Part shown: piece by piece, positions 7,832-14,930 of the stretch
Position numbering within the stretch: position 1 is the first letter of the stretch
How the letters are laid out: every line of letters begins with the position of its first letter
NCBI GenBank assembly: GCA_022844045.1
Contig: JALHMM010000004.1
Location: 1-64,000 of the forward strand
DNA: 64,000 bases
Direction: 5' to 3'
DNA from: Reyranellaceae bacterium
GTDB taxonomy: Bacteria; Pseudomonadota; Alphaproteobacteria; Reyranellales; Reyranellaceae
The notes under the pieces: generated by a model
The model's input: only the letters and a program-made list of their open reading frames with translations
Databases searched by the model: none
Told to the model about the DNA's origin: nothing
Made by a program: the position numbers and the translations under genes

Positions 7832-8614
7832 ATGCTCAACGGGAAGACCGCCATCATCACCGGCTCAACCAGTGGCATCGGCCTCGGCATCGCCGAAGCC
7901 CTGGCACAGACCGGCGCCAACATCGTGCTCAACGGCTTCGGCGACGCCATGGAGATCGAGCGCACCCGCTGCGATCTCGCCCAACGCACCGGCACGCGCG
8001 TCGTCTATTCGCCCGCCGACATGAGCAAGTCGGGCGCGATCGAGAACATGATCCGCCAGACGGTCGACGCTTTCGGCGCCGTCGACATCATGGTGAACAA
8101 CGCCGGCATCCAGCATGTCGCGCCGGTCGAGGAGTTCCCGCCCGAGAAGTGGGACGCCATCCTCGCCATCAACCTGTCCTCGGCCTTCCACGCCACGCGG
8201 CTGGCGCTGCCTGGCATGCGCAAGAAGGGCTGGGGCCGCATCATCAACGTCGCCTCGGCGCACGCCCTGGTCGGTTCGCCCTACAAGTCGGCCTATGTCG
8301 CGGCCAAGCACGGCGTCTACGGCCTGACCAAGGTCGTGGCGCTGGAGACCGCCGAGGACGGCATCACCTGCAACGCCATCTGCCCGGGCTATGTGCGCAC
8401 GCCGCTGGTCGAGAAGCAGATCGACGACCAGGCGAAGGCGCACGGCATTTCGCGCGACAAGGTGATCACCGACATCCTGCTGAAACAGCAGCCCAACAAG
8501 AAGTTCGTCGAGGTCGCCGAGCTTGCCGCCCTGGCCGTGTTCCTGTGCAGCGACCAGGCCGGCTCGCTCACCGGCGTCGCGCTGCCCATGGACGGCGGCT
8601 GGACCGCGCACTGA
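7832..8614 (+). CDS. bdhA: D-3-hydroxybutyrate dehydrogenase (SDR)
   Basis: NAD-dependent short-chain dehydrogenase interconverting D-3-hydroxybutyrate and acetoacetate, used to mobilise polyhydroxybutyrate. The 260 aa are the normal length. Visible are the cofactor motif ITGSTSGIG (9-17), NNAG, the catalytic Ser in NVASAHALVG with YVAAK (Tyr-x3-Lys), ICPGYVRTPLVEKQI and the family C-terminus MDGGWTA. The ATG at 7832 follows AGGGATAGGAC; the open frame upstream of it is the antiphase of the peroxiredoxin gene. It heads a three-gene cluster with a patatin-like gene (11 bp after) and adc, a recurrent PHB/acetoacetate set in Alphaproteobacteria. Confidence 0.94.
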   Translation: MLNGKTAIITGSTSGIGLGIAEALAQTGANIVLNGFGDAMEIERTRCDLAQRTGTRVVYSPADMSKSGAIENMIRQTVDAFGAVDIMVNNAGIQHVAPVEEFPPEKWDAILAINLSSAFHATRLALPGMRKKGWGRIINVASAHALVGSPYKSAYVAAKHGVYGLTKVVALETAEDGITCNAICPGYVRTPLVEKQIDDQAKAHGISRDKVITDILLKQQPNKKFVEVAELAALAVFLCSDQAGSLTGVALPMDGGWTAH

Positions 8615-8625
8615 GGGAGGAGACA

Positions 8626-9681
8626 ATGGACACTCACCAGATGACATCTCGCACCGCGGGCGGGCGCGACAACGTCAAGCGCATCAGCCTCGCCCTGCAG
8701 GGCGGCGGCGCGCACGGCGCCTATACCTGGGGCGTGCTCGACCGTCTGCTCGAGGACGAGCGGATCGAGGTCGAGGCGATCAGCGGCACCTCGGCCGGCG
8801 CGATGAACGCCGCCGTCTTCGCCGACGGCATGGGTCGCGGCGGCCGCGCCGAGGCCAGGCGCGCGCTGGAGGCGTTCTGGCGCAATATCAGCGACGCCGC
8901 CCGCTTCAGCCCGCTGCAACCCACGCCGTTCGATCGCGTGACGCGCGGCTGGAATCTCGACCATTCACCGTCGTTCATGATCATGGACATGATGAGCCGG
9001 ATGCTGTCGCCGTACCAGACGAACCCGGCGAACCTCAACCCGCTGCGCGACGTGCTCCTGAAGTCCGTCGACTTCGAACGCCTCGAGCATTGCCGCGCGG
9101 TGCGCCTGTTCATCTCGGCGACCAACGTCAAGAGCGGCAAGGTGCGCATTTTCGAAAGCGGACAGATCACGCCCGACGTGCTGCTCGCTTCGGCCTGCCT
9201 GCCCTTCATGTTCCAGGCCGTGACCATCGACGACGAGCCTTACTGGGACGGTGGCTATATGGGCAATCCCGCCCTGTTCCCGCTGATCTACGGCGCGCAG
9301 TCCAGAGACGTCGTGATCGTGCAGGTCAATCCGTTGAGCTGCGACGCGGTGCCGACCACGTCGTCGGCGATCATGAACCGGCTGAACGAGATCAGCTTCA
9401 ACTCCAGCCTGATGCGCGAGATGCGCGCCGTCTCCTTCGTCACCGACCTGATCGACCAGGGCCGGCTCGACAGCGAGCAATACAAGCGCATGAACGTGCA
9501 CTGGATCGAGGCCGAGGAACACATGAAGGGCCTTGGCGTCTCGAGCAAGCTCAACGCGCAGTGGGATTTCCTGCTGCACCTCATGTCGATCGGCCGCGAC
9601 GTCGCCGCCGCCTGGCTGGAGCGAAACTTCGACGCCATCGGCGAGCGTTCCACGGTCGACATCAAAGCCAAGTTCCTCTGA
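8626..9681 (+). CDS. patatin-like phospholipase
   Basis: Predicted Ser/Asp-dyad lipid acyl hydrolase of 351 aa. It has the oxyanion loop LALQGGGAHGAYTWG (22-36), nucleophile elbow GTSAG with Ser56 and catalytic Asp208 in WDGGYMGNPA. No signal peptide or membrane segment is seen, so it is probably cytosolic or PHB-granule-associated. The ATG at 8626 follows GGGAGGAG, 11 bp after bdhA. Homologues sit between bdhA and adc in many Alphaproteobacteria, which suggests a role near polyhydroxybutyrate or hydroxybutyryl metabolism; the substrate is not known. Confidence 0.92.
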   Translation: MDTHQMTSRTAGGRDNVKRISLALQGGGAHGAYTWGVLDRLLEDERIEVEAISGTSAGAMNAAVFADGMGRGGRAEARRALEAFWRNISDAARFSPLQPTPFDRVTRGWNLDHSPSFMIMDMMSRMLSPYQTNPANLNPLRDVLLKSVDFERLEHCRAVRLFISATNVKSGKVRIFESGQITPDVLLASACLPFMFQAVTIDDEPYWDGGYMGNPALFPLIYGAQSRDVVIVQVNPLSCDAVPTTSSAIMNRLNEISFNSSLMREMRAVSFVTDLIDQGRLDSEQYKRMNVHWIEAEEHMKGLGVSSKLNAQWDFLLHLMSIGRDVAAAWLERNFDAIGERSTVDIKAKFL

Positions 9682-9757
9682 CCACCGCCATCCGAGCGCG
9701 ACGAGGACCTGGATGTCTCGCCTCGCTCGACGTGACGAAACACCGAGGCGCCCCGCC

Positions 9758-10525
9758 ATGAACCACCTAGAGATCGTCGCCACGCCGCCGATACAAGAGA
9801 TCGGTCCGAGCCACCCGCATCTGCCCTACCGTTTCGTCGATCGCGGCTACATGGTCATCACCTATGAGAGCGACCCTGCGGCGATCCGGGCCGCCGTTCC
9901 CGAGCCGCTGGTCCCCGACGCCTCGAACCAGGTGTCCTACGAGTGGATCCGCATGCCCAACCCCTCGGGCTTCGGCGACCGCACCCAGAGCAGCGTGGTG
10001 ATTCCATGCTCGTTCAACGGCCGCCCCTGCGATTTCATCGCCCAGATCTATGTCGACGACGATCCGCCACTCTCCGTCGGCCGCGGGGACGACGGCTTCC
10101 TCAGGAACTACGCCCGCCCGAAGCTGGCCATCCTCAGGAACACACTGATCGGCACGCTCGACTTCGCCGGCCAGCGCGTCGCCACGGCCACCATGGCCTA
10201 CAAGCACGCCCTCTACGCCGGCGGATGGTCCAACCTGGAGGCATCGCTACGCAAACCGCGATGCCGGCTGAAAATCATCCCCAATATCGATCGTGACCCG
10301 GCGATCGCCCAGCTGGTCGGCGTCGAGCTCACCGACGTCACGGTGAAGGGCTCGTGGTCCGGCCCGGCGCGGCTTGACCTCGTGCCGCACGTCAACGCGC
10401 CGGTCGCCGACCTGCCGGTCCGCCGCGTCGTCGGCGGTCGGCACTTCCTCGCCGACCTGACCTTGCCGGCCGGCCGGGTTCTGGTCGACTATCTCAAAGG
10501 CAACGACCTTCGTCAGGCGGCGTGA
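9758..10525 (+). CDS. adc: acetoacetate decarboxylase homologue with substituted catalytic residues
   Basis: Acetoacetate decarboxylase normally makes acetone and CO2 through a Lys Schiff base. This 255-aa protein aligns along its full length with the clostridial enzyme (VPEPLVP, IPCSFNG, NTLIGTLDFAGQRVATATM, KIIPNIDRDP, VLVDYLK). However, the active-site segment that normally reads GFPKK/AYPKK is here GFLRN: the Schiff-base Lys115 equivalent is Arg116, Lys116 is Asn117, and Glu76 is Gln77. Arg29 and Glu61 equivalents are kept. The nucleotides (CTC AGG AAC) are single changes from CCC AAG AAG. The frame is otherwise intact. Classical decarboxylase activity is therefore unlikely; it may be decaying or have a binding role. 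The start follows the bdhA-patatin genes by 76 nt. Confidence 0.9.
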   Translation: MNHLEIVATPPIQEIGPSHPHLPYRFVDRGYMVITYESDPAAIRAAVPEPLVPDASNQVSYEWIRMPNPSGFGDRTQSSVVIPCSFNGRPCDFIAQIYVDDDPPLSVGRGDDGFLRNYARPKLAILRNTLIGTLDFAGQRVATATMAYKHALYAGGWSNLEASLRKPRCRLKIIPNIDRDPAIAQLVGVELTDVTVKGSWSGPARLDLVPHVNAPVADLPVRRVVGGRHFLADLTLPAGRVLVDYLKGNDLRQAA

Positions 10526-10933
10526 GGTGTTCCGCGGTAGTGCGCGCAGCTATCGGACGGCGGCTCTAGCGCCGCGCCGCTCCTTCGCTGTCTCTCTATG
10601 TCCCGGCCAACACCAGGGGGCATAGGGACTTAACAGCCACCGCGACTGCGCATTGGCTTTCCTTGTGAGCCCCCCATCGACAACAGAGGTGCGCGGCAGG
10701 TCCTTCGGGCAAGCCTTCGATGTCGAGCGTACATCGGCGGTCCTTTCAGCGCCGGCCGCCTTGTCTTGAGTCCAATCCAGCGGCCGACGCCCGAGCATCG
10801 GACTCAGTCTGCCGCCGTCGCTCTTGGTTATGGAATCAATTCATAGCGGGCATTTCCGTTCATCGCGCCGGACTCCGATGCTGGCGTCATGGCCGCAACC
10901 ACTCCGGTCGCGGTGCCACCAACGGAGATACTG
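10526..10933. other. 408-bp non-coding interval between adc and cupin gene
   Basis: No open frame here has convincing codon use or a recognisable product on either strand. The only structured element seen is the second copy of the bipartite motif at 10833-10864. The adjoining sequence 10560-10800 may be a decayed gene, but nothing identifiable remains. Confidence 0.5.
10833..10864 (+). promoter_or_regulatory. bipartite promoter motif, copy 2 (upstream of cupin gene)
   Basis: GAATC, 7 nt, then AGCGGGCATTTCCGTTCATC; 24 of 25 specified bases match copy 1 at 7742-7773, with the same internal spacing. It lies 70 nt before the cupin start codon. Confidence 0.5.
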
Positions 10934-11395
10934 ATGTTCAAACGCACGTTCCTCGCCGCGACGCTGCTCACGGGCTTCGCGTTCGTCGCGCCGGCCTTTG
11001 CCGGCGAATGCCCGGCCGACAAGATGCGCCCTGACGCCACCAAGCCGTCAGCCGCCGCCGCCAAGGGCGTCACCGACAAGGTGCTGTCTCAGATCGATCT
11101 CGGCAATGAGAAGGTCGCGCTCAAGGGCCACAACATGCGCGTGCGCCGCCTCGAAATTCAGCCCGGCGGGATCGTGCCGTGGCACAGCCACGCCGAACGC
11201 CCCGCGCTGATCTACATCGTCTCGGGCGCCATCTACGAGCACGCGAGCAATTGCGCCGTGCCGATCCTGCACAGCGCCGGCCAGGTGGCGCGCGAGACCC
11301 ATGCCACGTCGCATTGGTGGCAGAACACCGGCAACGTCCCCGTCGTGCTGCTGTCGTTCGATATCCAGCGCGATCCCAACGACAAGAACATGTAA
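10934..11395 (+). CDS. secreted cupin-domain protein
   Basis: Periplasmic protein of 153 aa with a signal peptide (MFKRTFLAATLLTGFAFVAP, cut after AFA) and a single cupin barrel. The metal-binding motif 1 is visible as PWHSHAERPALIYIVSG (His-x-His and downstream Glu) and motif 2 in ETHATSHWWQNTGN. Such small exported cupins bind a metal and a small ligand; the reaction here is unknown. The ATG at 10934 follows ACGGAGA; an upstream in-frame ATG at 10889 would bury the signal peptide. It precedes an MFS gene by 23 nt and shares its promoter motif with the bdhA cluster, suggesting coregulation. Confidence 0.85.
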   Translation: MFKRTFLAATLLTGFAFVAPAFAGECPADKMRPDATKPSAAAAKGVTDKVLSQIDLGNEKVALKGHNMRVRRLEIQPGGIVPWHSHAERPALIYIVSGAIYEHASNCAVPILHSAGQVARETHATSHWWQNTGNVPVVLLSFDIQRDPNDKNM

Positions 11396-11418
11396 CGCCG
11401 TACCGGCGGAGTCGGACC

Positions 11419-12630
11419 ATGACAGGTGCCCTGCGCGCGTTCACGATCGGCCTGACGGCCTTTCTGACCGTCGTCGATCTATTCGCGACGCAGGCCATCC
11501 TGCCCGCCCTCACCGCGGCCTACGGTGTGACGCCGGCGGCCATGGGCTTCGCCGTCAACGCCAGCACCATGGGCATGGCGGCGGGCGGCTTCGCGGTCGC
11601 CTTGTTCGGCCGCCGTCTCGATCAGCGGCGCGGCATTCTGCTGAGCCTGGCGATCCTGGCGATCCCCACGGCGCTCTTGGCCACCATGCCATCTCTGCCC
11701 GTCTTCACGGCGCTCAGGATCGTCCAGGGCGTTTGCATGTCGACGGCCTTCGCGCTCATGCTGGCCTATCTCGGCGAGCATACCAGCGCCCGCGACACCG
11801 CCAGCGCCTTCGCCGCCTACATCACCGGCAATGTCGCCTCCAACCTGTTCGGCCGACTCCTGGCTGCGAGCGCCGTCGATCATCTGGGCCTCGCCCCCAG
11901 CTTCTATGTCTTCGCGCTGCTGAATCTCGCCGGTGCGGTGCTGGTCTGGTTCACCATCCAGCGCACACCCGTGATGGACCGTGTCGACATGAGCCACAGC
12001 CCGCCGCTCGCGAGCTGGTTGCGTCATCTCGCCGATCCCGCGCTGCGCGCCGCCTTCGCGACCGGCTTCGTCATCCTCTTCGCCTTCATCGGCACGTTCA
12101 CCTACGTGAACTTCGTGCTGGTGCGCCCGCCCTTCTCGGTCAGCATGATGACCCTGGGCGCGATCTACTTCGTGTTCCTGCCGGCGATCTTCACCACGCC
12201 GCTCGCCGGTCGGGTCGTTGCGCGGGTGGGCACGCGTCCCGCGCTATGGGCGGCTTTCGGCCTCGCCGCCGCGAGCCTGCCCCTTCTGCTCAGCGCGCAC
12301 CTTGCTCTCTTGCTCGCGGGCCTCGTCCTGATCGCGGTCGGTACGTTCTTCGCCCAAGCGGTCGCCACCGGCTTCGTCAGCCGCGCGGCGGCGACCGACC
12401 GTGGATCGGCGAGCGGGATCTATCTCGCCAGCTACTTTCTCGGCGGCCTCGCCGGCAGCGCGGTGCTGGGCCAGGTCTTCGATCGTCTCGGCTGGATGGC
12501 GTGCGTGATCGGCATCGGCGTAGCGCTCGCGCTCGGCGCGTTGCTGGCGACGCGCCTGGTCATAGCCGCGAACCATCGGCCCGATGCCGCAACGGTATTT
12601 CAGAAGAGCGTGCCAGACAGCCAGTCTTGA
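11419..12630 (+). CDS. MFS transporter (YnfM/arabinose-efflux type)
   Basis: Inner-membrane secondary transporter of 403 aa with about 12 hydrophobic helices. The N-terminal half contains DLFATQAILPAL and the loop FGRRLDQRRG between helices 2 and 3 (the MFS G-x-x-x-D/R-x-G-R-R position). The second half starts after the cytoplasmic loop near residue 190. The sequence resembles drug/metabolite exporters of the YnfM/Bcr group; the substrate cannot be deduced. The ATG at 11419 lies 23 nt after the cupin stop, with GGCGGAG upstream. Larger open frames over the same stretch are antiphase artefacts of GC-rich coding DNA. Confidence 0.88.
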   Translation: MTGALRAFTIGLTAFLTVVDLFATQAILPALTAAYGVTPAAMGFAVNASTMGMAAGGFAVALFGRRLDQRRGILLSLAILAIPTALLATMPSLPVFTALRIVQGVCMSTAFALMLAYLGEHTSARDTASAFAAYITGNVASNLFGRLLAASAVDHLGLAPSFYVFALLNLAGAVLVWFTIQRTPVMDRVDMSHSPPLASWLRHLADPALRAAFATGFVILFAFIGTFTYVNFVLVRPPFSVSMMTLGAIYFVFLPAIFTTPLAGRVVARVGTRPALWAAFGLAAASLPLLLSAHLALLLAGLVLIAVGTFFAQAVATGFVSRAAATDRGSASGIYLASYFLGGLAGSAVLGQVFDRLGWMACVIGIGVALALGALLATRLVIAANHRPDAATVFQKSVPDSQS

Positions 12631-12665
12631 ACCACGCACTGACGCGTTCACCCCACGGAGCCCCC

Positions 12666-13166
12666 ATGCCAAACCGCATCGTCCAAGTCTGCTCAACCGC
12701 CTTCCTTGCCGTCGCCATCATGATGTCGCCCGCCTCGCAGGGCATCGCCCAGAGCCCAAAGCCCGCGGTTTCAGCGTCCGGCGTCATCGCCACCAAGAGC
12801 GCCTATGACGTCGCCGAGACAGTGGCGCGCCTCAAGAAGGACATCGCCGGCAAGGGCATCGTGTTCTTCCAGGAGATCGACCAGGCGGCGCTCGCCGGCA
12901 AGGCGGGCATCGAACTCAAGCCTTCGACCCTGCTGATCTTCGGCAACCCGCCGCTCGGCACGCAGTTCATCACCGCGGAGCCGCAAGCGGGCCTCGATTG
13001 GCCGGTGCGCATGCTGGTCTATCGCGACGCGGCGGACCAGGTGTGGGTCGCCTACAGCGACTTCGCGTGGATCGCCAAGCGCCATGGCATCACCAACCGC
13101 GATGCGCAGTTCGGCATGGCCTCGCAAGTCGCCGCCTCGATCGCATCCAGCGTCGCTCCTCACTGA
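12666..13166 (+). CDS. exported DUF302 protein
   Basis: 166 aa with a signal peptide (IVQVCSTAFLAVAIMMSPAS, cut near GIAQ) and one DUF302 domain: VAETVARLKKDIAGKGIVFF at the start, the signature LLIFGNPPLGTQFI in the middle and PVRMLVYRDAADQVWVAYSD near the end. DUF302 proteins are small dimeric alpha/beta proteins of unsettled function, often linked to stress or ligand binding. The ATG at 12666 is preceded by CACGGAGCCCCC. It is the last gene of the cupin-MFS-DUF302 run, 35 nt after the MFS stop. Confidence 0.9.
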   Translation: MPNRIVQVCSTAFLAVAIMMSPASQGIAQSPKPAVSASGVIATKSAYDVAETVARLKKDIAGKGIVFFQEIDQAALAGKAGIELKPSTLLIFGNPPLGTQFITAEPQAGLDWPVRMLVYRDAADQVWVAYSDFAWIAKRHGITNRDAQFGMASQVAASIASSVAPH

Positions 13167-13323
13167 GGAATGTGACCGGCGAGCCATGCCACGCTGCTGA
13201 ATAGCGCTCGACTGCTTCGGACCTGTGGGGCGTCCAACCTTTCGGTGTCTGGACGTCCTGAGGTCTGACGGACCTCGGCCCATGAATTGCCCACAGATTC
13301 TCGGCGCGATCCGCGTCGCGGCG

Positions 13324-13446
13324 CCGGGACCGGCCCGGTTCGATCTGGTACCGCATGTCAATGCACCGGTGGCCGATCTGACCTTGCCGGCCGGCCACGT
13401 CCTGGTCGACTACCTCAAGGACACGGACCTGCGACATGCCGCCTGA
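13324..13446 (+). pseudogene. adc: C-terminal remnant of a second acetoacetate decarboxylase gene
   Basis: The frame PGPARFDLVPHVNAPVADL is followed directly by TLPAGHVLVDYLKDTDLRHA, matching the C-terminus of the adc at 9758-10525. It lacks 15 internal residues (45 bp) present in the full copy between two GCCGACCTG repeats (10406-10414 and 10451-10459). Nothing upstream of about 13324 matches the rest of the gene. The fragment lies in the same orientation as the full copy. Confidence 0.85.
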
Positions 13447-13493: not shown

Positions 13494-14930
13494 ATGTCGC
13501 GCGTGGAGACATCGCTGGCGCCCGCCGTGGCCGCAACGCCGAGGCGGCGCTGGAGCTTCGGCCTGTCGCCGCGCATCCTGGCGTTGGTGATCGTGGCGGT
13601 GATGACCGCCGAGGTGGCGATCTTCCTGCCGTCGATCGCGCGCTTCCGCCTCAACTACCTGGAAAGCCTGATCGAGACCGGCGCGCTGGCGACCCTGGCG
13701 CTCGACGCCACACCCGACAACATGATCGACGAACGGCTCACCCGCATGCTGCTCGACCATGCGCGCGTCGACGGGGTCGTGGTGATCGAGCCGGACAAGC
13801 CCAAGCGGGCGCTGATCCCGCCGATGCCGACACAACCGCGCGAGACGTTCGAGATCGCCGACGCCATGGTCCCGGAGCTGATCTGGGACGCGCTGCAAGC
13901 CATGGCGCGCTCCGGTAGCCACGTGATCCGCGTCGGCGGCCGCTCGCTGCGCATGCCCAACGCGCGGGTCTACATCATCGTCGACGAGTTGCCGCTGCGG
14001 CTGCAGATGTACGCCTTCAGCCAGCGCATCCTGGTGCTGTCGATCATTATCGCGCTGTTCACCGCGGTCCTGCTCTATCTCGGCCTGCGCTGGCTGATCG
14101 TGCGGCCGCTGCAGGGCGTGGTGCGCGAGATGACGGCGTTCCGGCAGGCGCCTGAGGACGAGACGGCGACCCATCAGCTCAGGCCGCGCCAGGACGAGAT
14201 CGGGCTGGTCGACCGCGAGTTCGACGGCCTGCAGCGCGAGTTGCGCGCGGCCTTGCGGCAGAAGACGCGCCTGGCCGAGCTCGGCACGGCGATGAGCAAG
14301 ATCAACCACGATCTGCGCAATATGCTGGCGACCGCGCAGCTGGTGTCCGATCGCCTGGCGCGCAGCGAGGATCCCAAGGTGCGCGAGGTCGCGCCGATGA
14401 TGCTGGGCTCGATCGACCGCGCGGTGCGCCTGTGCGGCGACACGCTCGACTACGCGCGCGACCGTCCGGTGCCCAAGCTGGCGCCGGTCGATCTCGCCGA
14501 TGTCGCCGACGAGGTCGGCGTGGCGCTGATCGAGCTGGCGGAGCGCAGCGATCCCAACGCCGCGCACGACTGGCGCGTCGACGTCGAGCACGGGCGGCAG
14601 ATCCTGGCCGATCGCGCGCTGCTCTTCCGCATCCTGTTCAATCTCGGCCGCAACGCCTTCGACGCCGGCGCCAAACACGTCGTCGTGCGCGCCAGCGAGG
14701 AGCCGGCGGCGATCACTGTCGACGTCGTCGACGATGGCCCAGGTGTCCCAGAAGAGCTCCGGGCCCGCCTGTTCCAGCCTTTCGCGCGCGGCGGGCGGCC
14801 GGGCGGCTCCGGGCTTGGCCTGACGATCGTGCGCGATCTCGTCCTTGCCCATGGCGGCGACATCATGCTGGTGGCCAACGGCACGGCGGGCGCGACTTTC
14901 CGCTTCACGATCCCGCGCCGGGTGGCCTGA
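13494..14930 (+). CDS. orphan sensor histidine kinase
   Basis: Membrane sensor kinase of 478 aa. Helix 1 is near residues 27-47, a sensor loop of about 130 residues follows, and helix 2 is near 180-205 (ILVLSIIIALFTAVLLYLGL). Then come a HAMP-like linker (RPLQGVVREMTAF), a dimerisation domain with phospho-acceptor His272 in SKINHDLRN, and an ATPase domain with N-box GRNAFDAGA, G1 VDDGPGVP and G2 GGSGLGLTIV. No response regulator is adjacent, so the partner is encoded elsewhere. The ATG at 13494 follows CAGGGGGCG...; the longer open frame covers the adc remnant. Its 3' end overlaps the convergent MFS gene by 26 nt. Confidence 0.92.
   Translation: MSRVETSLAPAVAATPRRRWSFGLSPRILALVIVAVMTAEVAIFLPSIARFRLNYLESLIETGALATLALDATPDNMIDERLTRMLLDHARVDGVVVIEPDKPKRALIPPMPTQPRETFEIADAMVPELIWDALQAMARSGSHVIRVGGRSLRMPNARVYIIVDELPLRLQMYAFSQRILVLSIIIALFTAVLLYLGLRWLIVRPLQGVVREMTAFRQAPEDETATHQLRPRQDEIGLVDREFDGLQRELRAALRQKTRLAELGTAMSKINHDLRNMLATAQLVSDRLARSEDPKVREVAPMMLGSIDRAVRLCGDTLDYARDRPVPKLAPVDLADVADEVGVALIELAERSDPNAAHDWRVDVEHGRQILADRALLFRILFNLGRNAFDAGAKHVVVRASEEPAAITVDVVDDGPGVPEELRARLFQPFARGGRPGGSGLGLTIVRDLVLAHGGDIMLVANGTAGATFRFTIPRRVA

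Follow-up and report, generated by a model that had tools for sequence, protein, structure and literature searches.

The locus and its genes

The window, a stretch of 64,000 nucleotides from a Reyranellaceae genome, carries a gene for a homologue of acetoacetate decarboxylase (ADC) directly downstream of bdhA and a patatin gene (Table 1). ADC is known from textbooks for a lysine whose pKa is shifted, and this lysine has been taken as defining the family. Four genomes of the genus were sampled: that of the window (G000), that of its sister species (G002) and two others (G003 and G004).

Table 1. Features at the ADC locus of the window
Feature	Position	Strand	Evidence or remark
bdhA, 3-hydroxybutyrate dehydrogenase	7832..8614	+	TIGR01963 386 bits, over cut-off
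Patatin-like phospholipase	8626..9681	+	PF01734 84 bits
Lys-less ADC homologue, 255 aa, ATG start	9758..10525	+	PF06314 190 bits (cut-off 29.8); NF002614 270.9 bits (cut-off 150)
Active-site region given up, codons 66-120	9953..10117	+	14/28 invariant columns changed vs 4/48 elsewhere, Fisher 1e-4
Phe-Leu-Arg-Asn replacing Phe-Pro-Lys-Lys (TTCCTCAGGAAC)	10097..10108	+	
Near-identical copy of active-site 12-mer, 33 nt downstream (ATCCTCAGGAAC)	10130..10141	+	Possible short-patch conversion, post hoc
Insert of a cupin, an MFS and a third small gene, separating ADC from the histidine kinase	10889..13166	+	Synteny; at this place only in the window genome within the genus
Second ADC remnant, 3' end with 45-nt deletion, directly before histidine kinase	13306..13443	+	tblastn match; alignment; coding comparison over 13336-13443; repeat D1
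Sensor histidine kinase; directly after ADC in G002, G003 and G004	13494..14930	+	

The product resembles the ADC enzyme (EC 4.1.1.4; PF06314, NF002614) as a member of the same whole-length sequence family: it can be aligned end to end with the intact copy of G003, and the solved ADCs 3bgt, 3bh2 and 3c8w align with its residues 16-247. PF06314 was its only Pfam match, with none to DUF2071 (PF09844). From its sequence, the protein is predicted to have the ADC fold; an AlphaFold2 model built from a two-row alignment had a pLDDT of 31 and was unusable. Its place in the operon, behind bdhA and patatin, is likewise that of the enzyme, and, as the earlier note on this DNA had stated for the window, the gene keeps it throughout the genus and in G048.

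An active site without its lysine

The active site itself is unlike that of the enzyme. Relatives carry the motif GREIWGFPKKYAxPKL where the window protein reads GRGDDGFLRNYARPKL, so that GRGDDGFLRN stands against GREIWGFPKK or GRELWGFPKK in every intact relative listed, and the GREIWG element is gone. The position of the Schiff-base Lys115 is occupied by Arg116, that of Lys116 by Asn117, and that of Glu76 by Gln77 (the E of YTES; codon 9986-9988). The earlier note had described just this exchange, GFLRN for GFPKK together with Glu76 to Gln, and alignment with close relatives and with the solved ADCs confirmed it and showed the loss of the lysine to be common to the sister species. Its further claim that each change is a single nucleotide holds in part. 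The window codons CTC (10100-10102), AGG (10103-10105) and AAC (10106-10108) are each one nucleotide from those of G003, which has TTC CCC AAG AAG at the same site, but the Glu76 codon went from GAA in G003 to CAG in the window, a change of two nucleotides of which one is silent.

No replacement lysine was found in the window protein by alignment with intact relatives, a result that bears on the possibility, raised at the outset, that another lysine occupies the active site. Residues K122, K149, K166, K172 and K197 are lysine in most or all intact relatives too, and K247, the sole lysine not also common among them, is C-terminal. Arg29 and Glu62 (Arg29 and Glu61 of CaADC) are retained. The description of the rest of the fold as intact was nevertheless too strong, with changes in 18 of the 76 columns that are invariant in 28 relatives (for example E30G, D68N, S69P, Y75R, G79S, E110G and W112D).

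A scan of the genome contigs found one distant ADC, and no intact ADC was present in the window genome or in the complete genome of G002. A second, distant ADC-like protein of the window's own genome (L002, C25:46381-46734; 257 aa, 29-33 bits) has WGFPVEHG where PKK would stand, so that by eye it also is without the lysine. It is conserved in all four members of the genus (orthologues L047-L049).

The gene in the genus

ADC or its remains lie between patatin and the histidine kinase in all four genomes. The G003 gene encodes both GFPKK and the glutamate. In G002 the site reads FARK, Arg replaces Glu76, and a 15-nt deletion in the pocket has removed five residues of the GREIWG motif; its reading frame, like that of the window gene, is open, with a frameshift in neither copy. 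The G004 gene is a deletion pseudogene of which pieces 1-41, 83-109 and 181-255 remain, out of frame. In G003 (L035) the ATG of the otherwise intact gene has become AAG and is closely preceded by an in-frame TAA, so that translation would have to start at codon 12, where the next ATG lies. With G003 without its ATG start and G004 holding a deletion pseudogene, the ADC enzyme is being abandoned across the genus.

The gene also changes faster than its neighbours: identity between G000 and G002 is 98% for bdhA, 93% for patatin and 92% for the histidine kinase, and only 76% for ADC. A SCOT-type CoA transferase, which represents an alternative use of acetoacetate, is encoded in all four genomes. 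The acetoacetyl-CoA synthetase model gave no match over its cut-off, and a search for acetone carboxylase gave none in 75 genomes, its controls giving no match either.

Timing of the loss and selection after it

The species tree obtained from neighbour genes is ((G000,G002),(G003,G004)), with supports of 97 and 77. Ancestral reconstruction gives the ancestor of G000 and G002 Arg116 (P 0.97) and Gln77 (P 0.95) with Lys117 still in place (P 0.96); Pro115 and Lys117 were altered later. Both species share K116R with an identical AGG codon, along with more than 25 other derived ADC changes. Both catalytic residues, Lys and Glu, were already gone when these two species split.

Selection was assessed with a codon model of our own script (MG94-type, F3x4) and not with a published package. 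With G004 included, dN/dS on the stem is 0.76 and not different from 1, on the tips it is 0.22 (2dlnL 53 against 1), and the background is 0.10. Without G004 the values are 0.29 for the stem and 0.22 for the tips. The tips are far below 1 (2dlnL 53-55 over the two analyses) though at twice the background, a significantly weaker constraint (0.22 against 0.10, p 6e-4). With neutral lengths taken from neighbour genes, the stem has 0.88 overall and 1.56 in residues 66-120. The pairwise G000-G002 value is 0.19. Outside residues 66-120 the tips have 0.20 against a background of 0.11, the C-terminal half has 0.11 in G000, and the G002 ADC, with its five pocket residues lost, scores 0.23-0.49. A near-neutral stem followed by constrained tips shows a burst of change on the stem and constraint afterwards. 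The earlier note had offered a choice between a very recent loss and a new non-catalytic role; of these the former fits poorly with a loss reconstructed in the common ancestor and followed by purifying selection in both descendants, and the latter is favoured, with decay as a serious rival.

These averages call for care in one respect. As a control, the branch of the G004 pseudogene also averages 0.22, since the break can be late, so that this value by itself is no proof of function; what carries the argument for a retained role is that the lysine was lost before the split. At this G+C, a neutrally evolving copy would by chance stay free of stops about 10% of the time in each lineage.

The damage is not evenly distributed. 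When the 76 columns invariant in 28 intact relatives are split into residues 66-120 and the rest, the excess of changes in the active-site region of the window protein (Table 1) recurs in G002, with 16/28 changed within the region and 6/48 outside it (p 6e-5). G000 and G002 also differ from each other in this region, at positions 75, 77, 99, 105, 115 and 117, so that no new form of the pocket is being preserved. This speaks against a new enzyme, or a ligand sensor, built on the former pocket and in favour of a scaffold under constraint.

A retained pseudoenzyme or a decaying gene

On balance, with modest confidence, we read the window gene from these comparisons as a catalytically dead ADC, a pseudoenzyme that some non-catalytic role has preserved, if perhaps only temporarily. 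Its product would be unable to form a Schiff base with acetoacetate, so that decarboxylation by the established mechanism would be out of its reach. On this reading the two catalytic residues disappeared in the common ancestor of G000 and G002, in a brief phase of near-unconstrained change; purifying selection then returned in both descendants, leaving the active-site region to drift while the remaining chain was held. The retained role would most likely lie on scaffold or oligomer surfaces and not in the old pocket, and our guess is that it is structural or protein-binding. The loss of the residues, its timing, the clustering of the changes and the dN/dS values are shown by these comparisons; that the protein is inactive as a catalyst, and that it has a role at all, we infer. 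Catalytic residues have been lost here from a protein under purifying selection, as a pseudoenzyme would have it, with the caution that the G004 pseudogene gives an equal branch average. Conserved Lys-less ADCs elsewhere, such as the M-type described below, favour the same reading; G003 and G004, which show the gene to be dispensable in the genus, count against it.

Slow decay is possible but the more doubtful account: the ADC step would be useless in the genus, and the window gene a unitary pseudogene caught before its first stop or frameshift, its protein without a role. The deletion pseudogene of G004 and the start-less gene of G003 make this a serious rival, and it would also account for the pocket deletion of G002, the fast evolution of ADC relative to its neighbours, the stem dN/dS near 1, the second, truncated ADC remnant nearby and the other use of acetoacetate that the CoA transferase offers. 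It does not sit well with a dN/dS of 0.22 in both lineages after their shared loss of the lysine (2dlnL above 50 against neutrality), with the low value of the C-terminal half in G000, with damage that is clustered and not spread, or with the lack of a frameshift in either the G000 or the G002 copy.

That the window protein remains enzymatically active, through a chemistry independent of the lysine, we consider very improbable. Superfamily members such as MppR have altered chemistry, and Arg29 and Glu62 are kept; however, the pocket itself is unconserved between G000 and G002, the latter having deleted most of GREIWG, and the MppR model TIGR04460 scores 21.6 against a cut-off of 380. An assembly or sequencing error is scarcely credible even in an assembly of 144 contigs with 5.8% contamination, as the frame is open throughout and the sister species has the same AGG codon and the other shared derived changes.

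Lysine-less homologues elsewhere

The samples at family, class and phylum level yielded 134 high-scoring homologues of ADC, a non-random set to which relatives of Lys-less hits were added. Lys115 and Glu76 are both present in 127 of them; Lys115 is absent from the other seven, and exactly the same seven are without Glu76. On the tree, the lysine was lost four separate times, in the clade of the window and in three further lineages. The M-type clade (GREIWGYPMK; G102, G354 and G620) lies directly after an intact ADC, overlapping or abutting it; its copies have Gln in place of Glu61 and are strongly conserved (dN/dS 0.05-0.15, a rough value over long distances). A Q-type ADC in G304, whose placement on the tree is weakly supported, precedes an intact ADC and overlaps it, and a further Q-type ADC, that of G351, lies at a contig end. 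Tandem pairs of an intact and a Lys-less ADC of these types were seen at L198:7776-9340, L199:1236-2730, L211:5046-6577 and L200:7122-8704. Among the viral contigs scanned, no relative was confirmed.

The window protein shares with all of these the joint loss of the Schiff-base Lys and Glu76 in a sequence that otherwise scores highly as ADC, and with the M-type it shares constraint. It differs in standing alone and in its independent origin, whereas genes of the M-type and the Q-type gene of G304 adjoin an intact ADC gene or overlap with it, and their products retain GREIWG and Lys116. The earlier note had held that known members of the superfamily keep the lysine, which these three lineages contradict, as does DUF2071 (PF09844), a family of the ADC-like clan without Lys115 (PMC4520260). 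That family, which has an ADC-like fold, is like the window protein in being without the lysine; it is, however, a distant family that retains Glu76, where the window protein is a close ADC. Apart from DUF2071, no Lys-less or pseudo-ADC was found in the open literature.

We tentatively propose, without great confidence, that joint loss of Lys115 and Glu76 may be a recurrent route from ADC to a non-catalytic protein, mostly a subunit encoded so as to overlap an active ADC (the M-type and the G304 Q-type), with the pseudo-ADC of the window left on its own once the active enzyme had been abandoned. The joint loss in several lineages, in tandem with intact copies, is a more interesting result than the window gene itself. 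The lysine disappeared on at least four occasions, and Glu76 went with it on all of them; current family models still label the products acetoacetate decarboxylase at scores well over cut-off, and such mislabelling leads to wrong predictions of acetone pathways. The paired intact and Lys-less copies form a natural set for asking about a role of the ADC scaffold beyond catalysis.

Local rearrangement

The cupin, MFS and third-gene cluster inserted behind the window ADC has an 87% copy at another place in G004 (G004:C10), and in G048 it (window 10826-13169) is found reversed upstream of lysR. Its occurrence at other places in relatives implies that the cluster moves. Beyond it, the ADC remnant runs into the conserved upstream region of the kinase. 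A recent duplication of ADC inside the window was rejected: over 13336-13443 the remnant matches G002 better (0.86) than it matches the full ADC of the window (0.79). For the same reason, recombination with a sister lineage may have brought in the full copy together with the insert, or an old tandem pair may have broken up. A recombination boundary at the ADC start, sought by sliding identity, was likewise discarded, as identity drops there in every pair compared, which reflects rate and not a boundary.

Within the gene, the active-site 12-mer and its copy downstream (Table 1) differ by one mismatch in the window, two in G002 and four in the intact gene of G003. Simulation puts such a likeness by independent evolution at about 1e-4 in a test that was post hoc, and it suggests short-patch conversion or template switching. 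Between patatin and ADC, a repeat-like element at about 9690-9740 is present in G000 and G003 and absent from G002 and G004.
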